From a virus, in IMG/VR virus record IMGVR_UViG_3300017751_000019, positions 1-56,405 of that record: DNA of 56,405 bases; one strand, written 5' to 3'. Below the pieces are notes generated by a model. That model saw nothing but the letters and a program-made list of their open reading frames with translations. It made no database searches and was not told the DNA's origin. The position numbers and the translations under genes are program-made. Below are positions 8,965 to 40,600 of the stretch, piece by piece. Numbering within the stretch: position 1 is the stretch's first letter; each line of letters starts with the position of its first letter.

Positions 8965-9307
8965 CGATTACTTCCTCTTTGGTTTCTTCTTCGGTTTCAG
9001 CGATGCCATCGACACCGCTGGCTATTCTTTCAAGTTCCTCTCGGGACATTTCAGTGAGGTTTTTTACTGAATGTTCGTGCTGGTGATAGGAAGCTGAGAG
9101 GTCAGGAATGACCTTATTAAGGAGGCTAGAAAAGACCCTTGCTTGGGTGGGCGTCCACTCTATATGGCCCTTAACGACCTCGTCAGCCAGCGTGAGATGC
9201 GTCTGCATCTTGCTTGCTATCTGTCCTCGTAGGTTCGCTACCTGATGGGGTGATAAAGCGACTTGGCCAGTGGCCGTTTTGACTGATATTCGGGTAGTTC
9301 TACTCAT
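8954..9307 (-). CDS. terS: Probable terminase small subunit
   Basis: A 117-residue protein, first gene of the packaging operon, with a G-G-A-G ribosome site 6 bases before its ATG. The first half is a likely DNA-binding helical region (L-S-P-H-Q-V-A-N-L). The middle W-T-P-T-Q-A-R-V-F-S-S-L-L-N-K-V-I-P-D-L resembles the W-x-x-x-Q segment common in small terminases and replication-linked phage proteins. The C-terminus is strongly acidic, as in many small terminases that contact the large subunit. Assignment rests on that pattern and on position immediately before terL. Confidence 0.65.
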   Translation of the reverse strand: MSRTTRISVKTATGQVALSPHQVANLRGQIASKMQTHLTLADEVVKGHIEWTPTQARVFSSLLNKVIPDLSASYHQHEHSVKNLTEMSREELERIASGVDGIAETEEETKEEVIDEQ

Positions 9308-9471
9308 ATATAGCTCCAGACGTTTTCATTTTTGCTCGCGAGTCGAGACCCCCCGGTGACGTTGACGCGCACCACCGTGGGAGGCGGGGCCGGGATAGCC
9401 CCCCGGGGGGGTATATGGGCGCAGATTGGGTCGTGGCAGGGCTGAAACCCGCGCCGTTGCTGGGATTTCTC

Positions 9472-9490
9472 TCCCCTGAGAGGGGATTTT
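9472..9490 (+). terminator. Terminator-like hairpin
   Basis: TCCCCT and AGGGGA form a six-pair stem around a GAG loop, followed by TTTTC. It reads rightwards, away from the terminase genes, and would stop a transcript coming from the left part of the divergent region. Confidence 0.45.
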
Positions 9491-9598
9491 CTTGCGTGGG
9501 CGTTTCGCAGGCGCTGGAAAGGCACGCGAACGATGGGGTCTGGGGAGATTTTGTAACCATTTCAGCACATTACCCGTGCGTGCGTGGGTGTGTCGTCC

Positions 9599-9625
9599 AG
9601 TCCCCAAAGGGGACTAGGGGTTTTT
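9599..9625 (+). terminator. Terminator-like hairpin before the accessory operon
   Basis: AGTCCCC and GGGGACT pair perfectly over an AAA loop (9599-9615). Five bases later comes GGGG then TTTTT. The CCCC arm can alternatively pair with the second GGGG directly before the T run, giving two competing folds. This leaves only about 70 bases of leader to the next gene. Confidence 0.45.
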
Positions 9626-9695
9626 CGTCGGAAGATTTCCTTCCAGCCCGCCGTTTGCATTCCGCAGGGCGAGTAGCTCACACAGGAGAACACCC

Positions 9696-10034
9696 ATGAG
9701 CCAGTTCAAATCCGTTTCACTCAAGCAAATCGCACGCACAATCGAAGACGCACACGAGGACGATCGAGGTCGTCTGGTCGCGGAGGCGTTGATCGAACTC
9801 GAGCCGCGTCTGGAACGCGCACAGGAGCGCAAGCAGGAGGGCAAGGTCAAGCGCACACGCAAGGCCATCGAGCAGTTGGTCTCGCAGGGCGCGGTTGATC
9901 ACACGCAGTGCTTCGCCATGCAGACGTCACGCAAGCCCAAGGCCAAGGCCAAGCCGAACACGCAGGCGCAGATGATGCGCATGACCAAGGCTGATCTGGT
10001 TGCGGCGCTCATGCTTGCAGGCGACCTGTCCTAA
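9696..10034 (+). CDS. Basic helical protein, first gene of the accessory block
   Basis: A 112-residue, highly charged protein. Residues 1-70 are mostly helix (R-L-E-R-A-Q-E-R-K-Q-E-G). Then comes a basic linker with A-K-A-K-A-K and a C-terminal M-T-K-A-D-L-V-A-A-L-M helix. It has a good ribosome site (AGGAG, 8 bases before the ATG) and is followed by a strong terminator, so it is a single-gene unit. Basic linker plus helices suggests nucleic-acid binding, but no family is recognised. Codon use is more GC-rich than in the late genes. Confidence 0.75.
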   Translation: MSQFKSVSLKQIARTIEDAHEDDRGRLVAEALIELEPRLERAQERKQEGKVKRTRKAIEQLVSQGAVDHTQCFAMQTSRKPKAKAKPNTQAQMMRMTKADLVAALMLAGDLS

Positions 10035-10061
10035 TTCGCACACACGGATGTGCTTCCCCAA

Positions 10062-10092
10062 CCCTCACAGCTTCGGCTGTGGGGGTTTTTTT
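10062..10092 (+). terminator. Strong rho-independent terminator
   Basis: A ten-pair stem (10062-10071 with 10076-10085, one G-T pair) closed by a TTCG tetraloop and followed by seven T. It ends the transcript of the 9696-10034 gene. Confidence 0.9.
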
Positions 10093-10171
10093 GTGTCTGC
10101 ACGTTGTCGGCAGGCACACGGTCGAGCATCGACCGATCAACGACAGCACCCGTCATCACAGGAGATACCCA

Positions 10172-10354
10172 ATGACGATACGCAAAACCACGAGCAAGAC
10201 CGACACCGCATGGCGGTGGCTCGCAATCGGTCAACAACCCGCAGGACACGCGGACGAGCTTCTGCTCAACCACGACGTTCAGGCGACTGACTACCCAGAC
10301 GAGGACGACCTCGCTCTGTTCGGCTACACGCTGGTAAGGGAGGACGAGTCATGA
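10172..10354 (+). CDS. Unknown 60-residue acidic protein
   Basis: The first gene of a run of overlapping small genes. The start at 10172 is chosen because AGGAG sits 7 bases before it; an upstream in-frame ATG at 10079 lies directly behind the terminator stem and lacks a ribosome site. The C-terminus is rich in D and E (D-E-D-D-L-A-L-F-G-Y). Its TGA overlaps the next ATG. No family is recognised. Confidence 0.65.
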   Translation: MTIRKTTSKTDTAWRWLAIGQQPAGHADELLLNHDVQATDYPDEDDLALFGYTLVREDES

Positions 10355-10518
10355 GCATCTTCCGAGTCACCTCAATGGTTGCACCTGAAGGCGTCAACGA
10401 CGTGCTACACGTCGAAGCCAACAGCGCCAGTGATGCGCTCGCCATCATCCACCGCGAGGACGGGACTTCGTTGGTCGAGCACTTCGACTACGTGAAGATC
10501 GAGGAGGTCGCGTCATGA
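10351..10518 (+). CDS. Unknown 55-residue protein
   Basis: Starts at an ATG overlapping the stop of the gene before (ATGA) and ends in another ATGA overlap. The sequence alternates beta and helix (F-R-V-T-S-M-V, then S-A-S-D-A-L-A-I-I-H) and looks like a small folded domain. Function is unknown. Its place in a chain of overlapping genes strongly supports that it is translated. Confidence 0.65.
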   Translation: MSIFRVTSMVAPEGVNDVLHVEANSASDALAIIHREDGTSLVEHFDYVKIEEVAS

Positions 10519-10691
10519 ACGTAGACGAGCTGTTCACCCTTCACTTCCGTGGCGATGAGCCACGCGATGTACGTAAACGACGCCGCTCTTGTGAGTGGCA
10601 TCAAGGACGTTACAAGGATCGAGTCCGCCACTACTTACGCCAAGGATATTCCAAGGCCGAATCCATGAAACGCGCAGGAGAAAACCAGTGA
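10515..10691 (+). CDS. Unknown 58-residue basic protein
   Basis: A small, strongly basic protein (R-K-R-R-R near residues 20-24, R-Y-K-D-R-V-R-H-Y) with a helical C-terminus that reads like a short DNA-binding element (Y-L-R-Q-G-Y-S-K-A-E-S-M). ATGA overlap at its start and TGATG at its end. It is an acidic operon's only strongly basic member. No family is recognised. Confidence 0.65.
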   Translation: MNVDELFTLHFRGDEPRDVRKRRRSCEWHQGRYKDRVRHYLRQGYSKAESMKRAGENQ

Positions 10692-11023
10692 TGTATTACG
10701 TGAACGTGTACGAGAAAGCGTCCGCTTACGGCGGGCCTGAAGAGGGTGGCTGGTGGTACACAGTCATCGAGCCGCTTGGTTGTGAGGGATCAACAGCGAA
10801 CGAGGACGAGGCCAGAGACTTGGCTGAGTCCGTTCGTCTGGAGATCGAGCAACCCGAAGCCTACTACATGGGCATCAACAACGCAGATGGGTGTGACCCT
10901 GACGGCCAAGGTGACGACAGCTACCTGACGGTCGGCGGAGTGTGGGGTGACAGCAGTCTCGTTGTGTATGTCGAGGATCATCCACCCAAGCATCAACCAG
11001 AGGAGCGACCGCACTATGAGTGA
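10691..11023 (+). CDS. Unknown 110-residue acidic protein
   Basis: Starts at the ATG at 10691, coupled to the previous stop (TGATG) and preceded by AGGAG. The N-terminal M-Y-Y-V-N-V-Y-E-K-A-S-A-Y-G-G is followed by W-W-Y and an acidic helix with R-D-L-A-E-S-V-R. Strongly acidic overall, as is typical of small early phage proteins that imitate DNA or bind host enzymes; that is only a general resemblance. Function is unknown. Confidence 0.7.
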   Translation: MYYVNVYEKASAYGGPEEGGWWYTVIEPLGCEGSTANEDEARDLAESVRLEIEQPEAYYMGINNADGCDPDGQGDDSYLTVGGVWGDSSLVVYVEDHPPKHQPEERPHYE

Positions 11024-11183
11024 TCAGGTATTGAACGAGGACTTCGAGCTTGGGCTAGTCAGCCTGTGCATCGAGTTCTTTGGTGAATCAGGCGACTGGT
11101 TCTACGACTACGACGTGGACGCGAACGGAGAAGGTAGCGTCTACATCCGACTAACCGTACCAGCAGAGGAGAGCGAGACATGA
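11016..11183 (+). CDS. Unknown 55-residue acidic protein
   Basis: An acidic small protein (W-F-Y-D-Y-D-V-D-A-N-G-E-G near the middle). Its start overlaps the previous gene by 8 bases, with GAGG just upstream, and it ends in an ATGA overlap. It resembles a single small domain with a beta hairpin. No family is recognised. Confidence 0.65.
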   Translation: MSDQVLNEDFELGLVSLCIEFFGESGDWFYDYDVDANGEGSVYIRLTVPAEESET

Positions 11184-11482
11184 GCGACGATTCAATCCAC
11201 TACAGCCATGTGGACAAGCATGGCATGTGGTCGCTAAAAGACCATCCGATCAACCCCGCGACTCAGGCAGAGGCAGACGTGATCTACAACGATCTCGGCA
11301 TGTACCTGTCACCCGAAAGCGTCCACTCGGACGGCGAGAGCAGTGAGTCAATGGCACGCGATCACTTCAACTACTACATGCGCAAGGCAATGAGAGTTGA
11401 GCGGTGTGGATTCCTGCCAACGGAATGGAGTGACGTGTGGGAGCCGGGTCAATCACCGAAAGCAATAGGGCTGTGGACATGA
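11180..11482 (+). CDS. Unknown 100-residue protein
   Basis: An acidic protein with a W-S-L-K-D-H-P-I-N segment near residue 18, a helical S-S-E-S-M-A-R-D-H-F-N-Y-Y-M-R-K-A-M and a Trp-rich C-terminus. Joined to both neighbours by 4-base overlaps, with AGGAG before the start. No family is recognised. Confidence 0.65.
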   Translation: MSDDSIHYSHVDKHGMWSLKDHPINPATQAEADVIYNDLGMYLSPESVHSDGESSESMARDHFNYYMRKAMRVERCGFLPTEWSDVWEPGQSPKAIGLWT

Positions 11483-11604
11483 GTGCCGCAGAGTTCTGGG
11501 CATGGCTAGACAGTTGCCCATCAACAGAGTGGTTCGTGGCTGATGTCGAGACCGGATGCGCTCGAGTGTTTTTTACTTACGAGGAAGAGGAGGACGAAGC
11601 ATGA
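11479..11604 (+). CDS. Unknown 41-residue protein
   Basis: A very short gene with ATGA overlaps at both ends. The N-terminus is aromatic (A-E-F-W-A-W-L-D), the C-terminus a run of Glu and Asp. It fills an interval that would otherwise break the chain of coupled genes, which is the main support for it being real. Confidence 0.6.
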   Translation: MSAAEFWAWLDSCPSTEWFVADVETGCARVFFTYEEEEDEA

Positions 11605-11771
11605 AAACATACGAAGCGTATGTCAGCGGCGGTACAAGCCGCAGGGTAATAGTCGAGGCCAAGAATCAAGTCGAGGCTGAACTCGAGGCTATTCGAGAGT
11701 TCACCGCACTTGTTGGTGCTGAAGGCCATGTTGAAGTTATGGACATAGAGCAAATAGGAGACGAATCATGA
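11601..11771 (+). CDS. Unknown 56-residue protein
   Basis: A small beta-beta-alpha-beta protein (K-T-Y-E-A-Y-V-S-G-G, then V-I-V-E-A-K-N-Q-V-E-A-E-L-E-A). The Glu-rich GAGGAAGAGGAGG stretch just upstream supplies the ribosome site, and the start is coupled to the previous stop. No family is recognised. Confidence 0.65.
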   Translation: MKTYEAYVSGGTSRRVIVEAKNQVEAELEAIREFTALVGAEGHVEVMDIEQIGDES

Positions 11772-11953
11772 ACGACCAAACCTATCAGCAAGCAGTCGAG
11801 CAGGCCAGAGAGGAGGCTCTCGAGAGGTATCTGAACAACCGAATCGTTGAGTATCGCAAACAGAACGTGGACGTTGTACTCATAGCAGGGACGACACACG
11901 CCATAGCAATCGTGTTTGGTATGTGGCTGTTCTCAACGGTGTGGGGTGCCTGA
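11768..11953 (+). CDS. Small membrane protein
   Basis: A 61-residue protein with a charged helical N-terminal half (E-Q-A-R-E-E-A-L-E-R-Y-L) and one hydrophobic segment at about 37-58 (V-V-L-I-A-G-T, A-I-A-I-V-F-G-M-W-L-F), ending in W-G-A. It is likely a single-pass inner-membrane protein with its N-terminus in the cytoplasm. Overlaps both neighbours by 1-4 bases. Small membrane proteins in early phage regions sometimes serve in superinfection exclusion; nothing here proves that. Confidence 0.7.
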   Translation: MNDQTYQQAVEQAREEALERYLNNRIVEYRKQNVDVVLIAGTTHAIAIVFGMWLFSTVWGA

Positions 11954-12234
11954 TGCCAGAAGATACTGCGATGCTCAATTCGAGTGGCCGTCCGGCCAAG
12001 GATCAGGTCGTTCGACATTACGAGGACGGATCATCTGATTTCATTAGTTACGGCATGACCATTGTGTCACGCCCATTCAATTACCCAAGCGAGCCAATCG
12101 TGCTAGACGTGGACAAGTGGAACTACTCAATCACCACTGCCCGCTACCGCAACAGGTTCCTTGGGGAATCTACTGGCGACACCCGTCGCCGCATTAAGTC
12201 AGGCCAGTATGTGCTGAGCAATTTGAACGCATAG
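11953..12234 (+). CDS. Unknown 93-residue protein
   Basis: Starts at 11953 within a TGATG overlap. Contains V-V-R-H-Y-E-D-G-S-S-D-F-I-S-Y-G-M and a basic C-terminus (R-Y-R-N-R-F-L-G, R-R-R-I-K-S-G). It could be a small nucleic-acid-associated protein, but no family is recognised. Last gene of the strictly overlapping series. Confidence 0.65.
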   Translation: MPEDTAMLNSSGRPAKDQVVRHYEDGSSDFISYGMTIVSRPFNYPSEPIVLDVDKWNYSITTARYRNRFLGESTGDTRRRIKSGQYVLSNLNA

Positions 12235-12243
12235 GAGTTACCC

Positions 12244-12627
12244 ATGTTCAAGATATTACGCAACATTTTTAGCCAGTTTGAAGCAGTGAATGACCCAAGT
12301 ATTTTGCAGACCACACCAGAGATGAACAAGATTAATCACCGTGAGCGTGCGTCCACGCCATCTCGAATCATCTCGGTACGGGGCAAGACGTTTGGTGTCG
12401 GTTTGGTACGCAATGCCAATGCGCGCAACCGATGGAAGAGGTTGTCCACGCTGCAAGTGGGCGAAGAGATGTGCTTCATGGAGAAGCAAGTCACGATGCA
12501 CAAAGCAGTAAAGTCATACCGCAACAGTTGGGAAGGCCAGAGTCGTGAGTACGTAATCAATCCTGCAACACTCGAGGGTGCTCGAATCCCAAGCCAAGAG
12601 GTGTCAGTAGTTACTCGCACCGCCTGA
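12244..12627 (+). CDS. Unknown 127-residue basic protein
   Basis: Begins 9 bases after the previous gene with AGGAGTTACCC before the ATG. Rich in Arg and Asn (R-N-A-N-A-R-N-R-W-K-R), with a beta-like core (I-I-S-V-R-G-K-T-F-G-V-G). It is followed by a GGGGC-TACA-GCCCC hairpin (12635-12648) without a T run, then by the operator region, so it is probably the last gene of this operon. Confidence 0.7.
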   Translation: MFKILRNIFSQFEAVNDPSILQTTPEMNKINHRERASTPSRIISVRGKTFGVGLVRNANARNRWKRLSTLQVGEEMCFMEKQVTMHKAVKSYRNSWEGQSREYVINPATLEGARIPSQEVSVVTRTA

Positions 12628-12712
12628 AAATCCTGGGGCTACAGCCCCTGTCAAATGCAACGGCTCGGCATCGAAAGGTGTCGGGTCGTTGTCGTTATGG
12701 TGTCACGTTATG

Positions 12713-12758
12713 TTGACACACGCACGCTTCAGTGTTCTCATGACACCTTTAGGTGTCA
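12713..12758 (+). promoter_or_regulatory. Promoter with overlapping 18-base operator
   Basis: TTGACA (12713) is followed after 17 bases by a weak -10, TCTCAT (12736). The palindrome TGACACCTTTAGGTGTCA (12741-12758) starts at the last base of the -10 and covers the expected transcription start, a classic repressor position. A looser repeat GTGTCA-N8-TGACAC lies just upstream, around 12700-12720. The same palindrome occurs at 28155 and 24531. It would control the CobS/CobT-like operon. Confidence 0.7.
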
Positions 12759-12786
12759 CTCACATTTACTTTAAAGGTTACTTATT

Positions 12787-14469
12787 ATGGTTAAAAAATC
12801 TATCGATTTATTCATAGAGGCATTTCAGCCCGAACTCACGCCAGAGCAACGCCGCAACACTTGTCGCAAGGCATTGGCTGAGGCTATTGGTGATACACGT
12901 ATGGACATTCAACTGTTATGGAATGAGGGAGAGTGGAAGCATCAGTTATCCGAACCCCGACTTACACCACGAGGTATCGCCAGTTTGTTTGGTAAGCCTC
13001 ACAGTATGTTGGTGTCAGCATTGAGCATCATGCTTGACGGCGACGAAACCAGCCGTCGCGTTGGTGAAGAGTCAAGGGGCAAGCTCGAGCTTTGGCATAC
13101 GGCAATGAAGTACCCACACAAGTGTGCAGAAGGATCACGGGGCAAGGTGTTTGGTATGCACAGGGATTGGGATGAAGCCTACTTCATGGACATCATATCG
13201 TATGCGGAGACGTTAGGTATTGACTGTGCCGCCAGCGCAAACATGAAACCGACTAAGACTGCTAGTAAGTCCAAGGCATCAGCGCCTGCCGCAGGTATTG
13301 AGACTGCGCTTAACGGACTGCTCGACACAGTGGGACTGCCTGACTACAGCGATCTCAGAGAGACTCTGGATAACCTAGTTGTATTGAAAGGCGACCTGAG
13401 AGACAAGGACGCAACCATCGAATCAATGAAGCGCCAGATAGACATGGCATCCAAGGCTACGTTGGCTCCCGTCAGCGTGAAGGGTAGCGGTGATGTGCCT
13501 GATGGCAAGGTCGAGATTGCCAAGGCGTATGACCTGTTCGATGTGGGTGCTAGTGACCGCTCGATGTTCGACTTCGATCTGCCTCATGGGGTGTGGGATC
13601 ACGATCACCCTTATGTTCCTGATGTGGACACAGCTTATGTGTTTGACCCCGAGACACTGATCCCAGTGTTGCTTGCTGTTGTGAACAATCGTATCCCGTG
13701 GTTGCGTGGACATACTGGTACTGGCAAGACAACGCTTGCCGAGCAAGTGTATGCACGCCTCAAGTTGCCAGTGTTCAGGCTCAATCTGGACAGTGACATT
13801 ACTCGTGGTGAACTGGTTGGTCGAGAAGTTATTCGCACTGACAGCGATGGCAAGACAGTGACTGAGTTTGTGGACGGGATTATCCCGATGGCAATGCAAC
13901 AGCCCTGTCTGCTACTGCTCGATGAGGTCGATGCGGCGAGGCCAGACATGGGCTTTGTCCTACAGCGATTGCTTGAGGGCAAGGGGTTCATGTTACTCGA
14001 GGATGGTGGACGCACAGTCGTACCGCATCAGCACTTCCGCATGATCGCAACAGCGAATACCAATGGGCGTGGTGACGAGACAGGATTGTACTCGGGGACA
14101 CGGGCTTTGGGTACAGCATTCGTGAACAGGTTCAAGCCTTACATCGAGGTTGATTACATGACCGAGGATGAAGAGGCTGAGTTGTTGCATGACAAGAATC
14201 CTGCTCTGGACAAGGATGACTGCAAGACTATTGCGAGGTATGCAACCGAGCACAGGACAGCGTTCAAGCAGAGTGATGTCACGTTGGCGTGTTCGCCCAG
14301 AGATACCTTGGCATTTGCGGCCAGTGCGGTGGACTACAAGAGGTGCTTCGGGTCAGGCAGTGGATGGATGATGCTTGCCTTGAAGCATTCGATATTGAAT
14401 GCGGCAGACAGTGACGACAAGCAGGCGCTTGAGGGACTGGCGAGCCGAGTGATTGGAGGAACTGTATGA
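12787..14469 (+). CDS. CobS-like AAA+ ATPase (MoxR group)
   Basis: A 560-residue protein. The N-terminal 240 residues are a phage-specific helical region with a linker rich in Lys and Ala. The C-terminal AAA+ module has Walker A G-H-T-G-T-G-K-T at 308-315, Walker B L-L-L-L-D-E at 375-380, and sensor and arginine-finger type segments after it (A-T-A-N-T-N-G and F-V-N-R-F). This matches the CobS subunit of cobaltochelatase and related MoxR ATPases, which remodel a partner carrying a VWA domain. The next gene, overlapping by 4 bases, is such a partner. A role in cobalt insertion is not implied: phage CobS-like proteins have no proven function. The operon is headed by the operator palindrome. Confidence 0.85.
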   Translation: MVKKSIDLFIEAFQPELTPEQRRNTCRKALAEAIGDTRMDIQLLWNEGEWKHQLSEPRLTPRGIASLFGKPHSMLVSALSIMLDGDETSRRVGEESRGKLELWHTAMKYPHKCAEGSRGKVFGMHRDWDEAYFMDIISYAETLGIDCAASANMKPTKTASKSKASAPAAGIETALNGLLDTVGLPDYSDLRETLDNLVVLKGDLRDKDATIESMKRQIDMASKATLAPVSVKGSGDVPDGKVEIAKAYDLFDVGASDRSMFDFDLPHGVWDHDHPYVPDVDTAYVFDPETLIPVLLAVVNNRIPWLRGHTGTGKTTLAEQVYARLKLPVFRLNLDSDITRGELVGREVIRTDSDGKTVTEFVDGIIPMAMQQPCLLLLDEVDAARPDMGFVLQRLLEGKGFMLLEDGGRTVVPHQHFRMIATANTNGRGDETGLYSGTRALGTAFVNRFKPYIEVDYMTEDEEAELLHDKNPALDKDDCKTIARYATEHRTAFKQSDVTLACSPRDTLAFAASAVDYKRCFGSGSGWMMLALKHSILNAADSDDKQALEGLASRVIGGTV

Positions 14470-16451
14470 GACAGATAAGCGGAGACAAGTTGACACACGA
14501 GGTAACGGCTAATGCTCGTACCTTTTATAGGAACCAAGACCTTGAGGTTCTGATCGGTGGTGATCAGGCCATGACGAATGGCAAGACGGTGTACCTGCCC
14601 ACGATTCCGTTGGGTGTTGATTACGACGAAGATGAGGTGCGTACCATTCGCGGGTTCGTTGATCACGAAGCAGGACATGGACGCCACACTAACTTCTCGT
14701 TGGGACGTCGCAAGAAGTACAAGGAGTTGATGGCTCAAGTCGAGCACTTCATGCCTATCACGAATGGACTCGAGGACGTCCGCATCGAGCGGCTGATCAC
14801 GCAAGAGTATCCCGGCTCCAAGCGCAACCTTGAGGCCACAAGCCAGTGGGCAAACAAGTTATTTCTTGATCACTGGGATGGCACACCACCCACGCTTGAT
14901 GAGATAGGTGCAGTCGCGATCACATGGGAGGGACGCAGACGCATGGGCTACGACGATCCGACTATTCAGCAGTGCCTAGACACCTTGAGTGACGAGGTCA
15001 GGGCTGAGGTTGAGGGTGCTGTGGACAGGTTGTCCAAGGCCAAGTCAACCAAGGCGTGCATGGATATATCCGAGGAGTTGTGCAAGCAGTGGGGGCTTGA
15101 CCAGCGAGGCAAGGAAGAGGAACAGCAGGAGCAGCAGGGTGGCAGCGAAGAAGGCGAGGACGAGTCCGAGGACAGCAATCAGTCTAGCAATGACACTGGA
15201 GCTGACAGCTCTGGAGCTGACGATGCCGAGCAGAATCAGGGTGAGAACGCTGATGACAAAGCCGAGGACATGAGCGGTGGCGAGGGTGATGGTGAGCCAG
15301 AGAAAGAGGATGGCACTGAGGGCTCGGGTGACAATAGAGATGATCAGGGTACTCAGGCTGATGGTCAGGACAGTGAGCACAAGAAGCAGGTGCAGAAGTC
15401 TGCGGGGCATGGGTTCGATGTTGACAAGCCCAAGCAAGCGTATGACCCAAATCTTGATAAGGCCATGCAAAACATTGTGCAGAACAAAGAGGCAAGCGGT
15501 GGCTCTTATGTTGCTCATGGTCGCAAGTACGATGTCCACGAGAAGGCAGGCAACTGGAGCAGGCACACCCAAGATAGCATTGAGGCGGCCAAGAGATATG
15601 GAGCCTACAACATGACCCGCAATCAGATTGGCAGTCACATGAACAAGATGCGACGCAATCTCGAGAGGGCTTTGATTGCCAAGCAGGACAGGTCATGGCG
15701 GTCAGGCTATGAGGAAGGGACACTTGATAGTCGTAGGTTATCGAGAGCAGTGAGCGGTGACACCAGTGTGTATCGCAAGAGGACACCAGCCGAGGACATG
15801 GATACCTGTGTGATGCTTTGCATTGATGCCAGTGGGAGCATGGGACATTCCAAATGTCAGCTTGCAATGCAGTCAGCGATTGCTATGGGCGAGGTGTTCG
15901 AGAAGGTTGGTATTCCGTATGCGGTGACAGCGTTTAATACTCGCGCCCACAACGATAACAACACCAGAGCATACAACAATAGCGTTCGCAACCATCAGCA
16001 TGTCGAGGGTAGGTCACACTGTTTGTCCACGTACCTGCTCAAGGATTACGACGAGTCGTTACGCCAGACCAAGCACCAGATTGCCGCTTACGAAATGCTC
16101 GTGGGTTCAGGGAATACTGATGGTGATTCGCTGATGTATATCAAGCAAGCCTATGTAGATCGTCGCCACGAGAGTCGCAACATTATGTTTGTGTTCAGCG
16201 ATGGTGAGCCAGTGGGTACGAATGAGGATGCTGAGAGGTCTCGTCTCAAGAATGTATGCGCTGATATTGAGAGGCATATCGAGTTGGTCGGGTTCGGAAT
16301 CAAGACGGATGTGGACAGGTACTACAGCCATAGCGTTCAGGTGGACAGCCTTGATGAGATGAGCGGCAAGGTCATGAAGCAGGTTGCCAGTATGTTGCTC
16401 GGACAGAAGTTCAAGGTGGACGCCAAGGAGGTAGCGACCAATGCAGCGTAA
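14466..16451 (+). CDS. CobT-like VWA protein with HExxH motif
   Basis: A 661-residue protein paired with the AAA+ ATPase. Residues 67-71 read H-E-A-G-H, followed by E-D-V-R-I-E at 103-108, together resembling a zinc metallopeptidase site. Residues about 215-310 are an acidic, Ser- and Gly-rich linker, as in CobT. The C-terminal VWA domain has a MIDAS motif, D-A-S-G-S at about 454-458, which binds a metal ion and partner proteins. In cobaltochelatase CobT is the VWA partner of CobS; here the pair may instead be a protein-remodelling or proteolytic machine acting during infection (inference). The gene overlaps its partner by 4 bases and the next gene by 11. Confidence 0.85.
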   Translation: MRQISGDKLTHEVTANARTFYRNQDLEVLIGGDQAMTNGKTVYLPTIPLGVDYDEDEVRTIRGFVDHEAGHGRHTNFSLGRRKKYKELMAQVEHFMPITNGLEDVRIERLITQEYPGSKRNLEATSQWANKLFLDHWDGTPPTLDEIGAVAITWEGRRRMGYDDPTIQQCLDTLSDEVRAEVEGAVDRLSKAKSTKACMDISEELCKQWGLDQRGKEEEQQEQQGGSEEGEDESEDSNQSSNDTGADSSGADDAEQNQGENADDKAEDMSGGEGDGEPEKEDGTEGSGDNRDDQGTQADGQDSEHKKQVQKSAGHGFDVDKPKQAYDPNLDKAMQNIVQNKEASGGSYVAHGRKYDVHEKAGNWSRHTQDSIEAAKRYGAYNMTRNQIGSHMNKMRRNLERALIAKQDRSWRSGYEEGTLDSRRLSRAVSGDTSVYRKRTPAEDMDTCVMLCIDASGSMGHSKCQLAMQSAIAMGEVFEKVGIPYAVTAFNTRAHNDNNTRAYNNSVRNHQHVEGRSHCLSTYLLKDYDESLRQTKHQIAAYEMLVGSGNTDGDSLMYIKQAYVDRRHESRNIMFVFSDGEPVGTNEDAERSRLKNVCADIERHIELVGFGIKTDVDRYYSHSVQVDSLDEMSGKVMKQVASMLLGQKFKVDAKEVATNAA

Positions 16452-18146: not shown

Positions 18147-18575
18147 ATGAAACTTGAAGACAAAGTGAATAGGCTCGAAGGGAGAATCGAGAGCCTAGAG
18201 AGAATGGTAGACAGGCTAGTACTTGGGCAAGGTCATCAAGTACAGCACGAGGATATGGTCAAGGCCATTCTCCCGAGATTAACTGCCAAACAACATGTTG
18301 CATTACAGATGATCATGCTTGGTTGCAGTAATGCACAGATAGCAAAGAGGTTTAACGTTACGGAGAATACCGCAAAGGTACACGTCAGAGGGATCGCCAG
18401 AAAGTATCGCGTGAGCACCCGCTCGCAGATCGTTATGGCGGCAGTGTCTGAGTGGGAATCTGTTACATCAAATCAATACTTGCTTATGAGCGGAGGCATA
18501 CCGAAGGATTGGGGTGAGACATATGGACGTGGGCCTATAACAAAAGACCCTCACTCTAAAATATACAGGAGTTAA
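18147..18575 (+). CDS. LuxR-type helix-turn-helix regulator
   Basis: A 142-residue protein with AGGAGG 7 bases before its ATG. Residues 1-30 form a coiled coil (V-N-R-L-E-G-R-I-E-S-L-E-R-M-V), probably for dimerisation. Residues about 50-105 are a GerE/LuxR HTH: L-T-A-K-Q-H, G-C-S-N-A-Q-I-A-K-R-F-N-V-T-E-N-T-A-K-V-H-V. There is no ligand or receiver domain. The gene is followed after 3 bases by the integrase, so it may control lysogeny or integration. It has its own strong promoter and an upstream operator-like repeat. Confidence 0.85.
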   Translation: MKLEDKVNRLEGRIESLERMVDRLVLGQGHQVQHEDMVKAILPRLTAKQHVALQMIMLGCSNAQIAKRFNVTENTAKVHVRGIARKYRVSTRSQIVMAAVSEWESVTSNQYLLMSGGIPKDWGETYGRGPITKDPHSKIYRS

Positions 18576-31388: not shown

Positions 31389-31612
31389 AGACCCGCATTC
31401 ACGTTAATCAGCACAACATCCGAGCGAACACAAAAGGCGATGACCTTCCTGTTATCACTGTGAAAGACTACAGGCGTAACAGGAAAGTCAATTCAGCCAG
31501 AGTGATGCTAGGTGATACAGAGGTTTGTCGGGTTGTGTATCGGCCTGACAAGCCACTTCCTTGTGGCGCTAAGGTCTGGATAGAGACTGACCTAGATGTT
31601 GAGACTGATTAA
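31385..31612 (+). CDS. Conserved small phage protein
   Basis: A 75-residue beta-rich protein beginning M-K-T-R-I-H-V-N-Q-H-N-I-R-A-N and containing V-I-T-V-K and C-R-V-V-Y-R-P-D-K-P-L-P-C-G-A-K-V-W-I-E-T. I recall similar sequences in many unrelated phages, without known function. Last gene of the rightward operon; its stop overlaps the convergent giant gene by 4 bases. Confidence 0.7.
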   Translation: MKTRIHVNQHNIRANTKGDDLPVITVKDYRRNRKVNSARVMLGDTEVCRVVYRPDKPLPCGAKVWIETDLDVETD

Positions 31613-34600
31613 TCCCAACCCTTAGACCAACCTTTACCCCACGAACTACCTTTCTTTTTAACCTCTCCAGCTATCTCGTCTACTGCGGCTTCCTTGAGCG
31701 GCTTAATTCCTCCAACGACAGGTATGCGTCCAACGACAGACCTAGCGGCTGAACGCTCCTTCCCGTTAGCATCTTCATTGGTGTCAGTCACACCCTGCAC
31801 AACATTGACTGCATCGTTGAATAATCCTACCGATGGGCCAAAGATTGTGCTCGCGATCCTCTGCTTACCATAGGCTCCGTTGTCGAGTTGCTCGGCAGTG
31901 TCGTAGAACATGTTGGCAACAAGACCTAGTCCACCAATCTGAACCATAGACTCCACATACCAGCCAAGATAGTCGTCCCTGTCCCCGTGGATGTTGGTGT
32001 CAAATCCAAATCCTTCGGCTATTTTGCTGAGCTTTCTTTCCCGGAAGGTTTCGTTGTCCTCGCCTCGCTTCTGGACAATGTCCTTGGCTGCGAGTGACAA
32101 AGCACCACCTAGCGGTGCGGCAGTAGCCAACATGAGTAGAGGGCCAAAGCGTCGTCCACCACCAGTGACCGGGTCAACTTCTGTTGCCTGCTTGATTGAG
32201 TCATTGACTAGACGGCCAAGCATGAGAGGGTAACTCTTTAGCTGGAAGATCATCGCACCAACCGGAGTCTGAGCCCACAAGGGTACATCGTTCGGGTTTG
32301 GGGTAAAGATCGCCTCGTTAGCAAACTTGTTCATCGCAGAGCGAAGCTCAGGATGCTGGTTAAAGTCGGTGATGCCACGTATTGAGGTCATGCCGTCATC
32401 AAGATACTTGTCCAGACCATAGCGTCGCAACACTCGGAACGCCTTTTTGAACTGGGTGTTCTGCTGAGTCGCTGGCATGTTTGGATTGTAGTTGGTTAGC
32501 GCACGGTCGTACTCGGTGTAGAAAAACTCCAAGCCCACAGCTCCAGCCATATTCCTGTTGAGGTTTGTCCACGGAGTCAGCATGGTCGCATTGAAAAACG
32601 CGACAGTATTTTTGCTGGCAGCGGTTCCGTGCATCCCGGTTAATCTCTCGTGGACGACATTCTCAATAGCAAGGCCAGCGTTCTGGATAAACGACCGATA
32701 GTGCGGATCGCTTGCGTACTTAGTCATCGCCTTAGTGAAAGCAACTGGGCTACCTGACCGTACTGCCGTAAGCATTGGATCGCCAAGCGAGGTCAGGGTT
32801 GTAAAGCTCAACAAGGATACTGAGTTGAAGTTCCTTACTGCTTTACTCGCGGTGTTCATTGCGGCATAACCAGCCCCTGATGCACCTACAGGCTTACGTT
32901 GAACCGCCCTAAATATCTCCATAGCTGACTTGATGTGCTCGTTGTGCGGTCGGTTGTTGCCCATCCTTACACGGTCTTGAACTCCGCCCACGATAGCTTC
33001 GGATCGCTTGCTGAACACAGCTTTGTCAGCAGGGTCTGCCGACTCATCGAATGCTCTCAAGTACTCAAGCATCTCGGGTGTAGTCGCTCCTCTCTCAGCC
33101 ATCGCCAATAACTCTTGTGCGGCAGCTTTCGCTCCAGCAACGTCATTCTCGAATGGCATCAAGGTTTCCCGAACCAGCTCACCCTCGTCCACAGAACCTG
33201 TGTCGCTGATAGAGCGCATCTTCTTGGAGGTGATCTTCTTTGTGGTCAGCAGCTTCGTGACAGCATCAGTTGTATCGCCTGCGTCCTCGAGGATATTCAT
33301 GTAATCATGGAATCCATGTGACTGATTTCCATACTTAGATGCAAAGTCGATGCGACGAGAGGCTGAGTCAACGTACTTAGCCAGAACACTCTCAAGGTCG
33401 TCCTCAAGGTATCTGCCTACGTCGTCAAGAAGCTCGGGATACTTGTCTAGGCGAATCATTCGTTGATAGTCGATATGATCGCCAGTGACATCACGGCTAC
33501 CACCTGTAGGTGGTTCAACGTAAACGCCGTCCTCATCAATGATATGGCCGAACACTCGTTGAGCTTGGGCTTCTGCATTCTCTCTAGTTAGAACACGTCC
33601 TTCTTCCTTGGCTTCGAGAGCGAAGTAGCGGATGAGACGTTCTTTAAAGTCGGCCTCGTTCTGCATTACTTTTTCCATCGACCAGACTTGAGGGAAGTAG
33701 TTCTCGATGTTGCCGATCATTACGCCAGCATCAACCATTTCTCGACGCAGAGTATTAAATGCTCCGCGTACCATCTTGTAAACACCTTGCTCGTCCACGG
33801 TTAATTTAGCTTCGTGTCGTCCACCGGGTTGATTTCTCAGTGCGTTCACAATATTTCTGTGCGACTGCGGCTGATCCATGCGCATCCGATCTGAGCCCTT
33901 AAAGGACAGGTCAGTTGATCTGCGCAACCAGTTTCCGAACGTGCTCCTTGAGTCGCTAAGCTGTCGCATCTGCTTAAATATCGGGATGAGGATGCCACCA
34001 GTTCGACCATTAGTCCTCTCGAAATGGCCAACACCGCTATCTCGTGGAGGCGCAATCCAGTCAGCTACCCAACTCATTCCGTTCTCGCGTAGACGCTCAC
34101 TGTTGGAGCCAATGGAAACGGTGATGGCGCGCTGTATTGCGCTGGCCTCACGGTTATCTGGGTACTTGCCCCCCATCATCTTGCCGAGACCTGAAGCTGC
34201 GTTTGGATTCACGCCAGAGTTTAGTAGCGTTTGGACAAGAGCAGTTGTTTGAGGCTGACCAATGTTTATGTCGAGGGTCTTAGAGCTGAGAAGGGTTGAT
34301 GTTACAGATTGCAGTTCTATATCAATCGCTGATTCATCACCAATAGGCGGAACATCAAAGTCTCCGTTGTCCACAAACCTAACCTTGGCCGAATCAAAAA
34401 TCTCTGTCTTCTCTATAGGGCGGTCAGTCGGGCTCACCTTCTTGGGGTCATAGCTTGTGAAGCCGTCGAAGCCCATGCGATTTAACTCAAGGCTAAGGTC
34501 GTTGCGGCTGGAGGGTTTGTTTCCCATCATATTAAGAATCATATCGAGCACTTCGTTACCCGCCAAACTATCCGGCTGATTCTGACCAACTTGCGCGGCT

Positions 34601-37600
34601 TGTCGTGCTGTAAAATAATTCTCTTTAATTAGGTGCTTGACCACAGCAGACACAAAGGAGGAGTCATTCGTGTAGCGGGCTCTTGGGCCAAAGTCGGCAA
34701 CATTGCTTGCGCTTATGTAGACAGGCTCCGGGCCACTGACTTCAATGCCAAGTTTGATCAGCTCGTCATCAATAAAGGATATACCGTCTATTAATGACTC
34801 CTCGAGTTTAATTGTGCCGTCCTTTGAATTCCTTGTTGCCTCTTCAAGCCTGTCATTGAGGACTTGTTTTTCATTAAGCAATTCATCGATCTTTGTCTGA
34901 TCTGCATCCGTCCGCTTTCCTTTGCCTTTGATGTCAACAACGCCAGTTTCTTCTGCGGCCTGTGATGAGTATCTGTAGGCAATAGGGTTGCGTCCGCGAT
35001 TGCCAGAGTTTGTGTAAAACACCAGAGGGCGGTCATCACCTTTGCTTAGACCGTCTCCAATAAACTCATTGATAGCTCTTTTCCGAGAGTCAGGGCTGGC
35101 GTTCCATAGTCTAGGCTCTCGGTTCGTGGAAACAATAGGAGGCATTACATCAGGGCGTGCCGGAATGCTAAGGTCGGTCTTTCTTTCAAACAGGTTTCCT
35201 CTGCCATCAATCTGAGGGAAGGCGCGTCTTAGGTCTTTATCTAAGTGTCCGTTAAGAACCAAGGCTACTCGATCTATTATCGCGTCGTAAGCAGCTACCT
35301 GCTCTGCATGGCGAGAAGCGTTATACATTGACCCGTTATCTCGTATGCGATTCATCATCTCACCGATGACATTCCCGTCACTAGAAATAACTGCCTTAGC
35401 TGATGGGTCTATTCCGTCGAGGCGAAGAACCATTTCAACGACTTGCTCTACACCGCCCTCATCACCACGATTTAGCAGTTTTGAGATGTTGCGCATTCTG
35501 TCCCGCAAAGAAGCAAAGGCATCACTGCTGAAGTCGTTATCAAAGGTATCTCTGGAGCCAGCGGTCATAGGATCAAACTCGTCCCCGCGTGCGGCGACAA
35601 CAAGTCGCTGCGCGATACCCTCGTCAGATGCCTCGGAAATATTGTTGAGACGCAAGAAGATGCTCCGGGACTTGTACCCCTCCCGCTTTGTGCGATGACC
35701 CATTTTCTCTTGAGCTTCTCGAACAGATGCTGGCCCACTGGCTGAGAGGCTGTTGGCATCAAGACCCTCGCCCTCACGTATCTCTCTATTAATAGCGTCC
35801 GCTGTGACTGTATCTGTAACTGTGATAGGACTGATGGAGGTGACCCTTTCTGTATTAGCGCGAGCCTCCAGTTCGAGACTAGCCTGAAGCACCTCATCAG
35901 TGAGATTCTTGGCGGCCATTCCATCAGCCTTGATCTTCTCCAGCGAAGATGTGGACATGGTTTTAAAGCTAGGAGACTGGGCAGGGTTTGTCTCAGAAAC
36001 CTGCGGAACTTCTTTTGATTCAATAATTGCTTTTGTTGCCGCTTTTTCTTGGGTGATTTTACGCTCAGCTTTCTGTCTCTGGGCTCGACCCTTGGCAAAA
36101 CGCTCTTTAAAGAAAGTTCGCTGCTGAGACTCTTTTCGCTTCGCAAGGGTTTTACCCTCCGGGAACATCTCAAGGTCTTCATCAATTAGCCTGTTGAATA
36201 CACGCCGCAGATTTTTACTTATGTCTTCGTGAGCTTTTAGGTGCGGTTGTGCATTGCCTTCTAGCGCCAAGAATTTATAGAGATCGTCAGCTTTTTTGGG
36301 ATCAATAAGCTGAGCCGCAAAGTCCACGTCTCCATCAACAAGATCATCAACACTTTCTATTTTAAGAATGTCGAAAATATCTCGGGCCAAACGAGCATTA
36401 GCCGCGTTCGTTTTCTGCGTAAGCTGGAGCGGAGCGAATTCTTTCTTCCGGCCAGTGGCTGACATACCATAAAGGCGTTTAGCAAAATCTAGGGCGGCAT
36501 TTATTAATGCTTCAGGATTAGCAGAGTGATCAGTGTATAACTCCACCTGATACTCAAGGTCATCTACGAGCATATTTAAATCTTTTGCTACCCTTACTAT
36601 AGTTTGGCCAGCAGGGGTAGATGGTGGTGCGGCATCCCTCACTGCCATAGCTTCGCCGCCATCTGGAAGGATACGGGCGAATAATTTTTCTAGGTCGGGG
36701 TCTATATTCTTTGGGTCTAGCGCACGGTTGAATACACCCAGAACAACCTTGGATACTTTTTTCCAAAAGCTGTCTGACACTCCGTGGAATGCCTTAATTG
36801 ATTCCCCATATTGCTGGCTTCGAGCAAACCCGGATGCTTTGTTTTGCATCGTCCACATTGAAAACTGCTCAGCAAAGAACTCTTGAGGTGAGCGGATTCC
36901 CGGAGCATAAAAAACCTCCCCAAGGGTTTCTGCATTTTTAGGTAGCTTGTCAGCAACAGATGCTTCGTTTACCTGACCGTCAGCGTCAATGTATTTTGAC
37001 ATTGCTCCCCAGAACTCTAGCTTGTCCTCAGTGCTTAAAAGGTTGGCATACGTCCAGTGGCCCATCTCATGTGCAAGCGTGCGTATTCGGTCGTTGGGCA
37101 GTTGAGTTTCATCGATTCCCTTTGGCTTAGTGGCAAGAGATATTGAGTTATTTTTCCCACGGTATAAGCCGTCACCCTTGTAGGTATTTCCGTCAAATTT
37201 GGGAGCGCCTCGCCCGCCATCTTTGGCAAGCATCTCAATGAGACGCTTTCCTTCGGCTAACTCTTCGTTAGAGAAATCACTGAATAGTCTTTTGAAGTCT
37301 GCCTGACTGGTCTTGATAGCCAATGTGTCTAGTCGTATGTCTTCGGGGACATATTTTGCTTTAAATTGGTAAAGGTCAGATACAAATTTAATAGTATCTG
37401 TAGCGCCTTTTTCAGGCCAACCGAGAACCAAATCTACATCGGTGATCATCTGGTTGAGATCAGCTTTGCTTGCCACTCCGCCGTTAGCAGACATAAGGTC
37501 AACAAACCGCTCGATAACATCCAGTGGCTTGTAGAAAAGGGCAGACTCAGAATTCGGTAGGTTTTCAGCTAAGGATACAAGTCTTGAGATGTCATCCACG

Positions 37601-40600
37601 GTCACTGAAACCAGCTCTTGCCCAGCTTCTTTTTGGGTTAAGAATGACTTAATTTTCTTCGGCTCAACACTGTCGGCCTTCCACGCAACAAAGCTATCAT
37701 TAGCTAGGCGTGAGCCAGTAGTTGCTGACCCGTTGACGTATCCTGCTGTCCACTCGCCATCAGGCATTTTGCCGACGAGATCAGAAAGGGTCTTGCCTGC
37801 CTCGATCTGCTTGTTCGAGATAACACGAATATTCTTGTCGGGGTCATCAGGCAGTACCGCCAGACGCATACCATCTTCATCAACAGCGGGTAGATCAGGA
37901 ATAACCGTGAGAGGAGTTGTGTTGGCTGTTTCTTTTGCAACTGACTTGGAGTCAATGCCTTTTACAGCGTCAAGGTAATCCTTAATAGAACCACCACCAC
38001 GCAATACTGCACCAGCCTCCCTTAGTTTTTTAGCCTTCGGAATGTAAGGTTCGTCCACATCCAGTCCGTCCTCGGGTTTTACTGTCTCCCATCCTTCAAG
38101 AGCTTCAATGGATCGATATGACTTGCCTCGGCTATCAACATACAGGGTCTCACCTTTCTTGGCTCGAGACTGCACAAACTTCTTCTTGCCTTCTGTGCCA
38201 TACTCTTTCATCTTGCCTTGGTTGGTGGCATAGACCTTCTCTCCGCCAAGGGAGGTGTACTTCACGATCTTGTAAACTTCTTTGTTCTGGTAGACGCCGT
38301 TATCGTCTTGGATCATTTGCGTCTTTCTTGCTTCGTCTACAGCGGCCTCATGGCCATAGATAATTTTCTCGTCCTCAGTGAGAGGGCCGCGACCTTTCCC
38401 TTCTGTCCCCGGTAGGACTTCAGGCGCTCTACCAATGACTCCATATCCACCGCCAATATCAGTACTGCTACGCAAGAACGACTGTATTTTTCCACGGGTA
38501 GTTCGACCAGCAGTTGTATCGATTGGCTCTCGGCCAGCGGCACTTGGGATTCTTTGGTTTGCTCTATCCAAGTCGTCTGAGATTAGCCTGTCGTAGGCCA
38601 GTACTTTCGCGTACTCAGGAGTTAGCTTTTTATCTTTTGCCATCTCCTGACGCATTATCTCTAGCAGTCGCTTTTTGTCTCTAGTGTTAAGTGAGGCAAT
38701 CTGACCTTTTAGTTCGCTTGAGTTTGACTGGACTTCTACGTCAATTTTTCTAGGGTTCATCTGCCCCAGCATCCAGTCGGTGACCTCATCACCGCGACCT
38801 TTAGGTGCTTTCTGCTCAATCAAATACCTGAACGTGTCAGGGTCATCCCTGAGCATCATCATCAGGGTATCTTCGTCAATGTCCTTGAGTAGTTTCTCGA
38901 ACACCCCGTCAGCCACGGCGTCAATATCTGGCGCTTCAACTGGCTGGCGTGCGGTATTTGCTTTTAGATATGCACGAAGATTCTTTTGAGCTACTCTGGT
39001 TAAAACACCTTCTCCGGTTACGGGGAGTATGTTGTTTTCAATCAGGTCAGCAAGATCATCCTCATCAAGGTTTGCCTTTGACAGAATGTTGGTTATGGAT
39101 TTCTGCTGTTCGGCAGAGCGATACTTAACCTCAGTGATCTTGATCTCGTCATCAATAAGTTCTTCAGCGGTTAAAGGCTCTTTCTTGCCGGGGACACCGT
39201 CCACGAACATATCTCTGAATGCGTCACGGCCAGCTTGGGTCACCTTTCCGTTGGGTGACACCTCGATTTGACCAGCATTGATCATCCCGAGGAAGTCGTC
39301 CTCGGTCAGACCCATTTGTCCTAGTTGCTGCTTTATCGACGCTTCTTGTTGCGCACCTCGGTATTTGACTTCGGTAACTTGTTGCGTGGGAGCTTCTGCG
39401 GCTGGAGCTTCTGGAGCAACTGTAGCTTCAGGAGCTGGAGCTTCAGGGGCAACTGCGGCATCTGGTGCAGCTTCAGTTTGTCCACGAGCCTTAACAATTG
39501 CTCTTACTTGCTTTACGCCGATGCCGAACTTGGTTTCAGGCTCGACATCAGTAAGCTCCGCGACAGTGATGCCATTTTCTTCTGCCGCCTTTCGCGCTCC
39601 TTTTGTTAGCTTGAAGCCAGACAGGTCAGTTGAGTCACCTGCATCTGGTTGGGCAGGAGTTTCTGGTGCTGGCTCTGGTGCGCTAGGTGCTGTTCCTGTT
39701 GCGGGTGCTGGAGCTTGACCCGCTGCGGCGGCATCTTCTGCGTCCGCTGCTCGCTCAACGCCTGCAATTCTATCTAGTATAGACTGTAGGCTCGCACTGT
39801 CGCCTGCTTCAAATGCGGCGCGATAAGCTGTTTTGAGCTTAGTTAATTCCTGAGATCGCTTTTGTCCACGCTTGTTCTCAGCGGGATCGGCTGACTGGAG
39901 TAGGGGGGCAATGTCATCCTCGTATGCGGACAAGCGTCCATTCAACTCGAGCATGTCATTAAGCAGGCGGGCGCGTGTAACCAGATCATCGACCATGCCC
40001 GGATTGCCGTCCATAGCCTGAACGATCTCTGACTCAGTCTTTTTTATCTCTTCCTGAATCGCTACTAAATCGACTTCAAGGTCTAGGTCAGTTGGCATCC
40101 GGCCAGTGGTATCTGGGCCTTGAGTCTCTGCCTCCGTTGTCCCGGCCTCGGGAGCATTTGGATCAGGATCAACATCCGGGTTTGGCTGTTCACGGTTGGG
40201 CGGAATATTGTTTTTAAGAATCTGGTTTACAGTCCCTTGGGGGAGTTGAGGTATCTCGTCCTCCGTCCATCCAAGCTCAACCAGTCGTCGGTTCTCACGG
40301 AATATTGTTCCCGGGGCATCGACAGTGCGGCCCATCTTTTGATACTGAGCACCAAGTCCACCGAACACAGCACCAGCTCCAGCGCCAAACAATATGCCTG
40401 ACCCGCCAGCTACTGCCGCATCTCCAAAACTATACTCGTCGCGAATACCAAGATTGATGTCTCGAGCTTGCTCTAAAGAGTTGAAGCCAGTTTCAGCGAT
40501 ACCACTTGCGGCACCTTCAGCGATAGCACCTTTCTTCATGCCAGCCTTGAGAGCACCCTGAGCGCCTTGCCGCAAAACAGCTTTAGCCGCTTGTCCACCA

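Follow-up and report, generated by a model that had tools for sequence, protein, structure and literature searches.

Introduction

Clusters of small accessory genes are a known kind of phage feature, for which the host-takeover module of SPO1, located in the terminal redundancy of this Herelleviridae phage, is a well-studied parallel. According to the available part of one report, eight products of the module slowed host growth (PMC6873191); the module is also covered in the available part of a second (PMC8208478). Another point of comparison is Roseobacter phage CRP-810 (OR671924). The accessible sections of PMC11288001 report at least eight subgroups in the CRP-810-type family, an integrase gene in 217 of 251 genomes, and demonstrated integration of CRP-810 itself; these sections contain no discussion of the small genes or the terminator considered below. 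Here, we characterize a cassette of ten very small genes (g1–g10; plus-strand positions 10172–12234) in a relative of CRP-810, the 56,405-base IMG/VR virus record IMGVR_UViG_3300017751_000019, which was analysed over its full length (the window).

Two features of the cassette are observed directly: (i) its ten open reading frames (ORFs) overlap by 1, 4 or 8 nt, and (ii) it occupies a slot whose layout—gene g0, terminator, small genes, cobS/cobT—is conserved in the family and whose content turns over. Taking the evidence as a whole, we read g1–g10, with moderate confidence, as one polycistronic, translationally coupled accessory cassette in a CRP-810-type temperate phage. Transcription would start upstream of g0, and many polymerases would stop behind g0; the remainder, by readthrough or antitermination, would carry transcription on through the cassette, at a reduced level, toward cobS/cobT. 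Ribosomes would pass from gene to gene by termination-reinitiation, which would keep the dosage of the whole set in step and allow any one gene to be replaced by another with the same junction type. A weaker component of the proposal is that the cassette proteins may target the host soon after infection begins, for takeover or counter-defence; their small size, rapid turnover and atypical base composition would then be accounted for. Specific to this locus are the family-wide terminator ahead of the slot and the exchange of single genes, our literature search having been aimed at this terminator only as far as CRP-810. The result is a delimited slot that can be aligned within a marine phage family of global distribution, and in which small, putative host-interaction genes are swapped one by one.

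The large terminase subunit (TerL) of the window is 61.9% identical to that of CRP-810. Gene order also agrees between the two: minus-strand structural genes give way to divergent plus-strand genes (with TerS and g0 divergent) and cobS/cobT, followed by genes for a LuxR-type helix-turn-helix (HTH) protein, an integrase, a primase/polymerase, an AAA protein and a PD-(D/E)XK nuclease. By TerL relatedness and synteny, the window is assigned to the CRP-810-type phages, an integrase-bearing marine family; given the integrase gene in the window and the integration of CRP-810, the family is temperate. The slot of CRP-810 holds four annotated genes (gp02–gp05), none of which corresponds to any of g1–g10 by BLAST, and a DNA-level search of INPHARED with positions 9000–13500 returned no matches. 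Relatives were therefore drawn from IMG/VR loci found through TerL (best 80 of 341 kept, 54 of which extend at least 1.8 kb past TerL). Their genes come from a simple caller trained on the window's genes, by which small genes will be missed or added, and identical stretches were counted once. Loci with a called g0 of less than 90 aa (L040, L100 and L107; L040 is the window's own species, with g0 miscalled) or lacking any cassette gene (L115) were excluded from the terminator, element and slot-size counts.

Architecture of the ten-gene chain

A preliminary description of this DNA, made from the letters alone, reported ten tiny, nearly unspaced genes, most of them acidic, one very basic and one membrane-bound. 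Both parts of this description are borne out. All ten ORFs are intact and start with ATG: g1 (10172–10354, 60 aa), g2 (10351–10518, 55 aa), g3 (10515–10691, 58 aa), g4 (10691–11023, 110 aa), g5 (11016–11183, 55 aa), g6 (11180–11482, 100 aa), g7 (11479–11604, 41 aa), g8 (11601–11771, 56 aa), g9 (11768–11953, 61 aa) and g10 (11953–12234, 93 aa). Eight of the ten proteins carry a net negative charge; g1, g2 and g5–g8 are acidic, g4 has a net charge of −19, and g3 is very basic (isoelectric point 10.1). A clear membrane segment is present in g9 only (Kyte-Doolittle score 1.97 at residue 36; the runner-up among the ten reaches 1.05). The ends of the genes partly encode the ribosome-binding site of the next, which accounts for some, not most, of the acidity (charges calculated with and without the last 8 residues).

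Six junctions are 4-nt ATGA overlaps (g1/g2, g2/g3, g5/g6, g6/g7, g7/g8 and g8/g9), two are 1-nt TGATG overlaps (g3/g4 and g9/g10), and one is an 8-nt overlap (g4/g5). Translational coupling at ATGA and TGATG junctions is established (PMC6728339, available part). An exact Shine–Dalgarno match of at least 5 nt precedes eight of the ten genes; g7 and g10 lack a strong site and would thus depend on coupling. Defining a chain as ATG-started ORFs of at least 40 aa with junctions of −8 to +3 nt, the longest chain in the window contains ten ORFs on the plus strand and one on the minus strand, and in 1000 dinucleotide-preserving shuffles the longest chain was three (0 of 1000 above three). The notion that g1–g10 are mis-called ORFs and no genes at all, to which g7 lends a little weight (41 aa and no strong Shine–Dalgarno site), is hence very improbable: both the shuffles and the existence of the g4 and g10 protein families, described below, argue against it. 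The G+C content of the cassette is 0.548; windows of equal size give 0.502 ± 0.025, which places the cassette approximately 1.8 standard deviations over the genome mean, a level reached by 18 of 272 windows.

A terminator ahead of the slot

The gene preceding the cassette, g0 (9696–10034, plus strand), encodes a Lys-rich protein of 112 aa whose position is conserved in the family; g0 and its relatives are Lys/Ala/Pro-rich, with a resemblance to histone H1 by eye only. Behind g0 lies an intrinsic terminator (10060–10095, plus strand), consisting of a 12-pair hairpin at 10060–10087 (ΔG −20.1) and a T-tract. A hairpin and T-tract follow g0 directly in all 38 distinct relatives (ΔG of −18 or below), compared with 14 of 184 cases after other cassette genes. 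The 30 distinct hairpin sequences all fold into near-perfect stems, and among eight close relatives double-sided changes are seen in 7 of 16 predicted pairs (4 of 16 pairs outside the terminator stem). Together, these patterns point to a strong intrinsic terminator, with predicted termination and under evident selection, between g0 and the cassette.

The distance from the end of the hairpin to the first cassette start is 25–37 nt in 28 of 37 distinct loci, 71–81 nt in six, and 177, 224 and 254 nt in the last three. A gap of 25–37 nt is too short for a sigma-70 promoter. The window's own gap measures 84 nt and contains two further hairpins; a sigma-70 scan found no promoter at g1, at g0 or in this gap (2 sites in 9000–13000, with 2.3 expected). 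A terminator ahead and, mostly, too little space for a promoter make readthrough or antitermination the probable route by which polymerases reach the cassette. In phage HK022, antitermination of early genes is driven by an RNA, put (PMC9378689, available part), and the arrangement of terminator, absent promoter and genes—the sole prompt for the comparison—suggests by analogy that a put-like RNA could operate here.

Since the family is temperate, an alternative that the preliminary description left unconsidered is expression from the prophage. The terminator would then isolate moron-like genes that have a weak promoter of their own and whose expression in the lysogen excludes other phages, the membrane protein being a superinfection-exclusion factor. 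The window's integrase and the integration of CRP-810 fit such a scheme, as do the recurrence of a membrane-segment protein in relatives' cassettes and the additional terminator found, in some relatives (L046, L047 and L110), after the last cassette gene before cobS. Against it stand the 28 loci without promoter room between terminator and cassette, and the lack of any sigma-70 match in the window's gap. We regard prophage expression as possible, though doubtful.

A conserved element upstream of g0

A second conserved feature, CATTTCA-n-TTAC-N18-GTCGTCC, lies upstream of g0 at 9558–9598 (element annotated as 9554–9598; plus strand, the sense being inferred) and is a candidate promoter or regulator site. 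GTCGTCC is present in 31 of 35 distinct regions upstream of g0, and 31 can be aligned on [GA]TCGTCC at 80–160 nt before g0. Matches to the strict pattern occur upstream of g0 in 41 of 50 loci and between g0 and the cassette in one (L098); the [GA]TCGTCC half occurs between g0 and the cassette in L055, L057, L059, L060, L098 and L119. That the element is always upstream of the cassette and sometimes downstream of g0 favours a role in the plus-strand operon, and it may also have a role for the divergent TerS operon. It is perhaps a promoter, for a phage factor, an extracytoplasmic function (ECF)-like factor or the host polymerase, or else a site bound by the LuxR-type HTH protein that the phage encodes. 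At 9554–9615, in the divergent TerS/g0 region, the element is followed by a small hairpin. The HTH protein is encoded at 18147–18575 (142 aa); the LuxR-type HTH was recognised by eye, and there are weak PHROG matches to sigma factors (E 0.001).

Turnover of genes within the slot

In relatives, the slot between the Lys-rich g0 and cobS/cobT contains 2–10 called small genes, mostly of different identity (30 loci reaching cobS; g11-type genes counted), and gene sets differ even between contigs with 81–87% identical TerL. Among the loci compared at this stage, g1–g9 are matched in full by a single contig, IMGVR 3300031851_000483, which belongs to the window's species (99.95% identity across 13.4 kb); g1 has a partial match in 3300021185_002299, and g4 a weak one in a Bacillus phage. 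The last cassette gene, g10, is 66–69% identical in four more contigs; g11 (12244–12627, plus strand), a basic 127-aa protein kept as the last gene before cobS in close relatives, reaches 36–42%, and g0 35–51% in more. Across 2.04 Mb of loci outside the species, g1–g3, g5 and g7–g9 have no matches at E 0.05, and g6 has one weak match of 28%, which is not credible.

Profile searches against 707 targets, which include open frames overlapping the genes, add two borderline cases. When the first cassette gene of seven relatives is used as a profile, g1 takes the top rank (E 0.035); with their membrane gene, g9 does (E 0.36). These ranks are suggestive of a relationship and are not proof. Profiles of the relatives' other cassette genes (families C–G) gave nothing above background with g1–g10. 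Of the ten genes, g10 alone is clearly held in common with close relatives by these comparisons. The cassettes of another subgroup include a protein of 211–220 aa (L014, 4899–5534; similar in L012, L018, L019 and L028), for which the L014 type has a sub-threshold match to Api92-like DUF1281_C (E 0.021).

Exchange of a single gene is seen for g4, which has a 78% identical counterpart in L127, a phage locus of 6.3 kb with no other match to the window. Similarity extends approximately 15 bases past the gene at both ends; the counterpart overlaps its upstream neighbour by 4 nt, and the 8-nt overlap with the following gene is preserved. The presence of g4 in an otherwise unmatched locus indicates that cassette genes swap singly.

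Turnover of this kind could also arise neutrally, if the slot tolerates the build-up of ORFans that the phage can do without and the overlaps reflect genome compaction only. Most of the genes are without relatives, and some relatives have just two called slot genes, both of which such a process would produce; g4 and g10, in contrast, are kept across distant phages with invariant motifs, and a ten-gene overlap chain with Shine–Dalgarno sites is far from chance. Neutral accumulation is thus unlikely.

The g4 and g10 families

The preliminary description stated that none of the ten proteins is recognised, which requires amendment for two of them: g4 matches three unnamed PHROGs (best E 9.8e-7), and g10 matches one PHROG (1e-6) and, through its structural model, proteins named DUF8033. 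Judged by their spread in sequence databases, both belong to large, widespread phage protein families, with at least 321 confirmed IMG/VR loci for g4 and at least 453 for g10; the best 80 of each were kept, and 79 fetched loci apiece yielded alignments of 65 (g4) and 66 (g10) non-identical members. Two very widespread, unexplained phage families thus come with confident structural models.

The g4 family shares the core Y.N.Y...YGGPEEGGWWY and the end P..RP.YE across phages of Alphaproteobacteria, Bacillus and Streptomyces; PHROGs 24642, 30656 and 7302 have the same N-terminal YVNVY...YGGPEEGGWWY. In INPHARED, g4 matches 51 records at E ≤ 1, mostly weakly and in Streptomyces phages (best among those listed, 2e-4). 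The window's branch has an acidic loop and lacks an N-terminal Cys-rich extension found in members from Bacillus phages; in two of these (L035, 4890–5264; L121, 2878–3264) the extra stretch is zinc-ribbon-like. The predicted model is a compact alpha/beta fold (mean predicted local distance difference test score, pLDDT, 89.8). Its viral matches at E ≤ 0.03 are mostly to its own family, the best including relatives in Streptomyces phage Wofford and Bacillus phage Mater. A profile search of PDB sequences returned none at E ≤ 1, and a second-look fold comparison with known structures gave no clear match (best Z 4.0, root-mean-square deviation (rmsd) 3.8 over 54 aligned residues, a topoisomerase I complex). 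The suggestion that DNA mimics might be found by structure prediction, pursued for g4 only as the most negative protein, gains no support from this fold and its matches.

The model of g10 (mean pLDDT 96.4) matches BFVD entries named DUF8033 in UniProt tables (best E for named members 2.5e-8, TM-score 0.87), and one of these, Barba19A gp058, is also matched by sequence. A Pfam scan gave a DUF8033 hit for 0 of 67 g10-family members, it being uncertain whether that Pfam copy includes the model; a literature search on DUF8033 found no papers. Against PDB, the fold had no hits at E ≤ 0.001, and the best VIA-align row (a metallo-beta-lactamase; Z 4.7, rmsd 3.8, 77 aligned) is tied with others, such that nothing is drawn from it. 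Of the 23 INPHARED records matched by g10, 15 are Pelagibacter phages. In pelagiphages HTVC109P and HTVC048P, the g10 relative lies in an early block of small genes ahead of a MarR-like gene, an integrase and an RNA polymerase gene. The order of small genes and integrase resembles that of the window; the pelagiphages differ in carrying a single-subunit RNA polymerase gene, none having been identified in the window.

A DpnD/PcfM-like identity was considered for two further cassette proteins, g2 and g8, and rejected, as no search supports it.

Possible function of the cassette

The preliminary description further proposed that the cluster encodes early host-takeover or anti-defence proteins. Its strand agrees with this: g1–g10 are co-oriented with cobS/cobT, the HTH gene and the integrase gene, and opposite to the virion genes. 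The positions of some g4 and g10 relatives, in early-type regions or terminal repeats, agree also. For g4 the repeats in question are those of Mater and P59, two Bacillus phages that belong, like SPO1, to the Herelleviridae. Among neighbouring ORFs, 70% (g4 family) and 79% (g10 family) are of 120 aa or less, versus 56% in TerL loci. As a cluster of small, co-oriented accessory genes, g1–g10 resemble a takeover module; early expression would follow by positional analogy, and the products might inhibit or redirect host functions. The likeness to SPO1 has limits: no gene of the cassette is matched to SPO1, whose genes were not searched singly. Against the proposal, there is no match to a defence family (one weak PADLOC hit, g8 to a DruM fragment, E 0.014), and most genes are unconserved. 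The preliminary description had taken absence from relatives as a sign against the proposal; such absence is found for g2, g3 and g5–g8 in the 2.04 Mb, and not for g4 and g10. High turnover is also expected of arms-race genes.

Several observations weigh against the coupled-cassette account and its early-acting component. Most cassette genes lack conservation in relatives, which could mean that they are dispensable. PADLOC, NCBIfam and Pfam gave nothing convincing for g1–g10, the PADLOC models being of defence and not of anti-defence. In 16 of 65 loci, a g4 relative has a putative small terminase gene nearby, so these relatives are not confined to early regions. The window's terminator-to-ATG gap could hold a promoter of another consensus. 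As for the upstream element, 9 of 50 loci lack the strict pattern upstream of g0, with just L098 among them having it between g0 and the cassette; in L069 and L086 the upstream match is limited to the GTCGTCC half; on the opposite strand there are three strict matches; and elsewhere in the window the strict pattern recurs three times on the plus strand, at 874, 33377 and 50869. A takeover or counter-defence role for g1–g10 is plausible by analogy and unproven.

A more specific version of the coupled-cassette account, which we put forward tentatively, is that the slot is an exchange site gated by the terminator. Slot genes would need regulated antitermination begun at CATTTCA-TTAC-GTCGTCC, and captured genes would be silent unless the lytic programme runs; a minority lineage, with the element after the terminator (L098 by the strict pattern; L055, L057, L059, L060 and L119 by the GTCGTCC half), would bypass the gate. 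If true, this would account for the ability of a temperate phage to harbour small, potentially harmful genes and yet leave them unexpressed as a prophage.

Neighbouring genes

The right border of the slot is a cobS-like gene for a MoxR-type AAA ATPase (12787–14469, plus strand), followed by a cobT-like gene for a VWA protein (14466–16451, plus strand). The two resemble a MoxR AAA ATPase and VWA protein pair, and the cobalamin label in PHROGs and the CRP-810 record may mislead. Since the cassette adjoins this pair, co-oriented, across the family, and since overlapping gene pairs often encode subunits of complexes (PMC10666635, available part), g1–g10 could in principle form a single complex or assist the CobS/CobT-like proteins as accessory factors. 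This is highly unlikely, as CobS/CobT are retained in relatives whose cassette genes differ.

The sole Rfam match is a sub-threshold Histone3 at 12737–12782, judged to be chance. A search of bacterial genomes with TerL yielded three loci, the only close one being L037, a contig of a Neomarinimicrobiota metagenome-assembled genome (TerL 53% identical to that of the window); it is a possible host link or a binned phage. Among the virion genes, positions 31609–41034 (minus strand) encode a 3141-aa protein, with a weak PHROG virion-structural match confined to residues 2793–2943.

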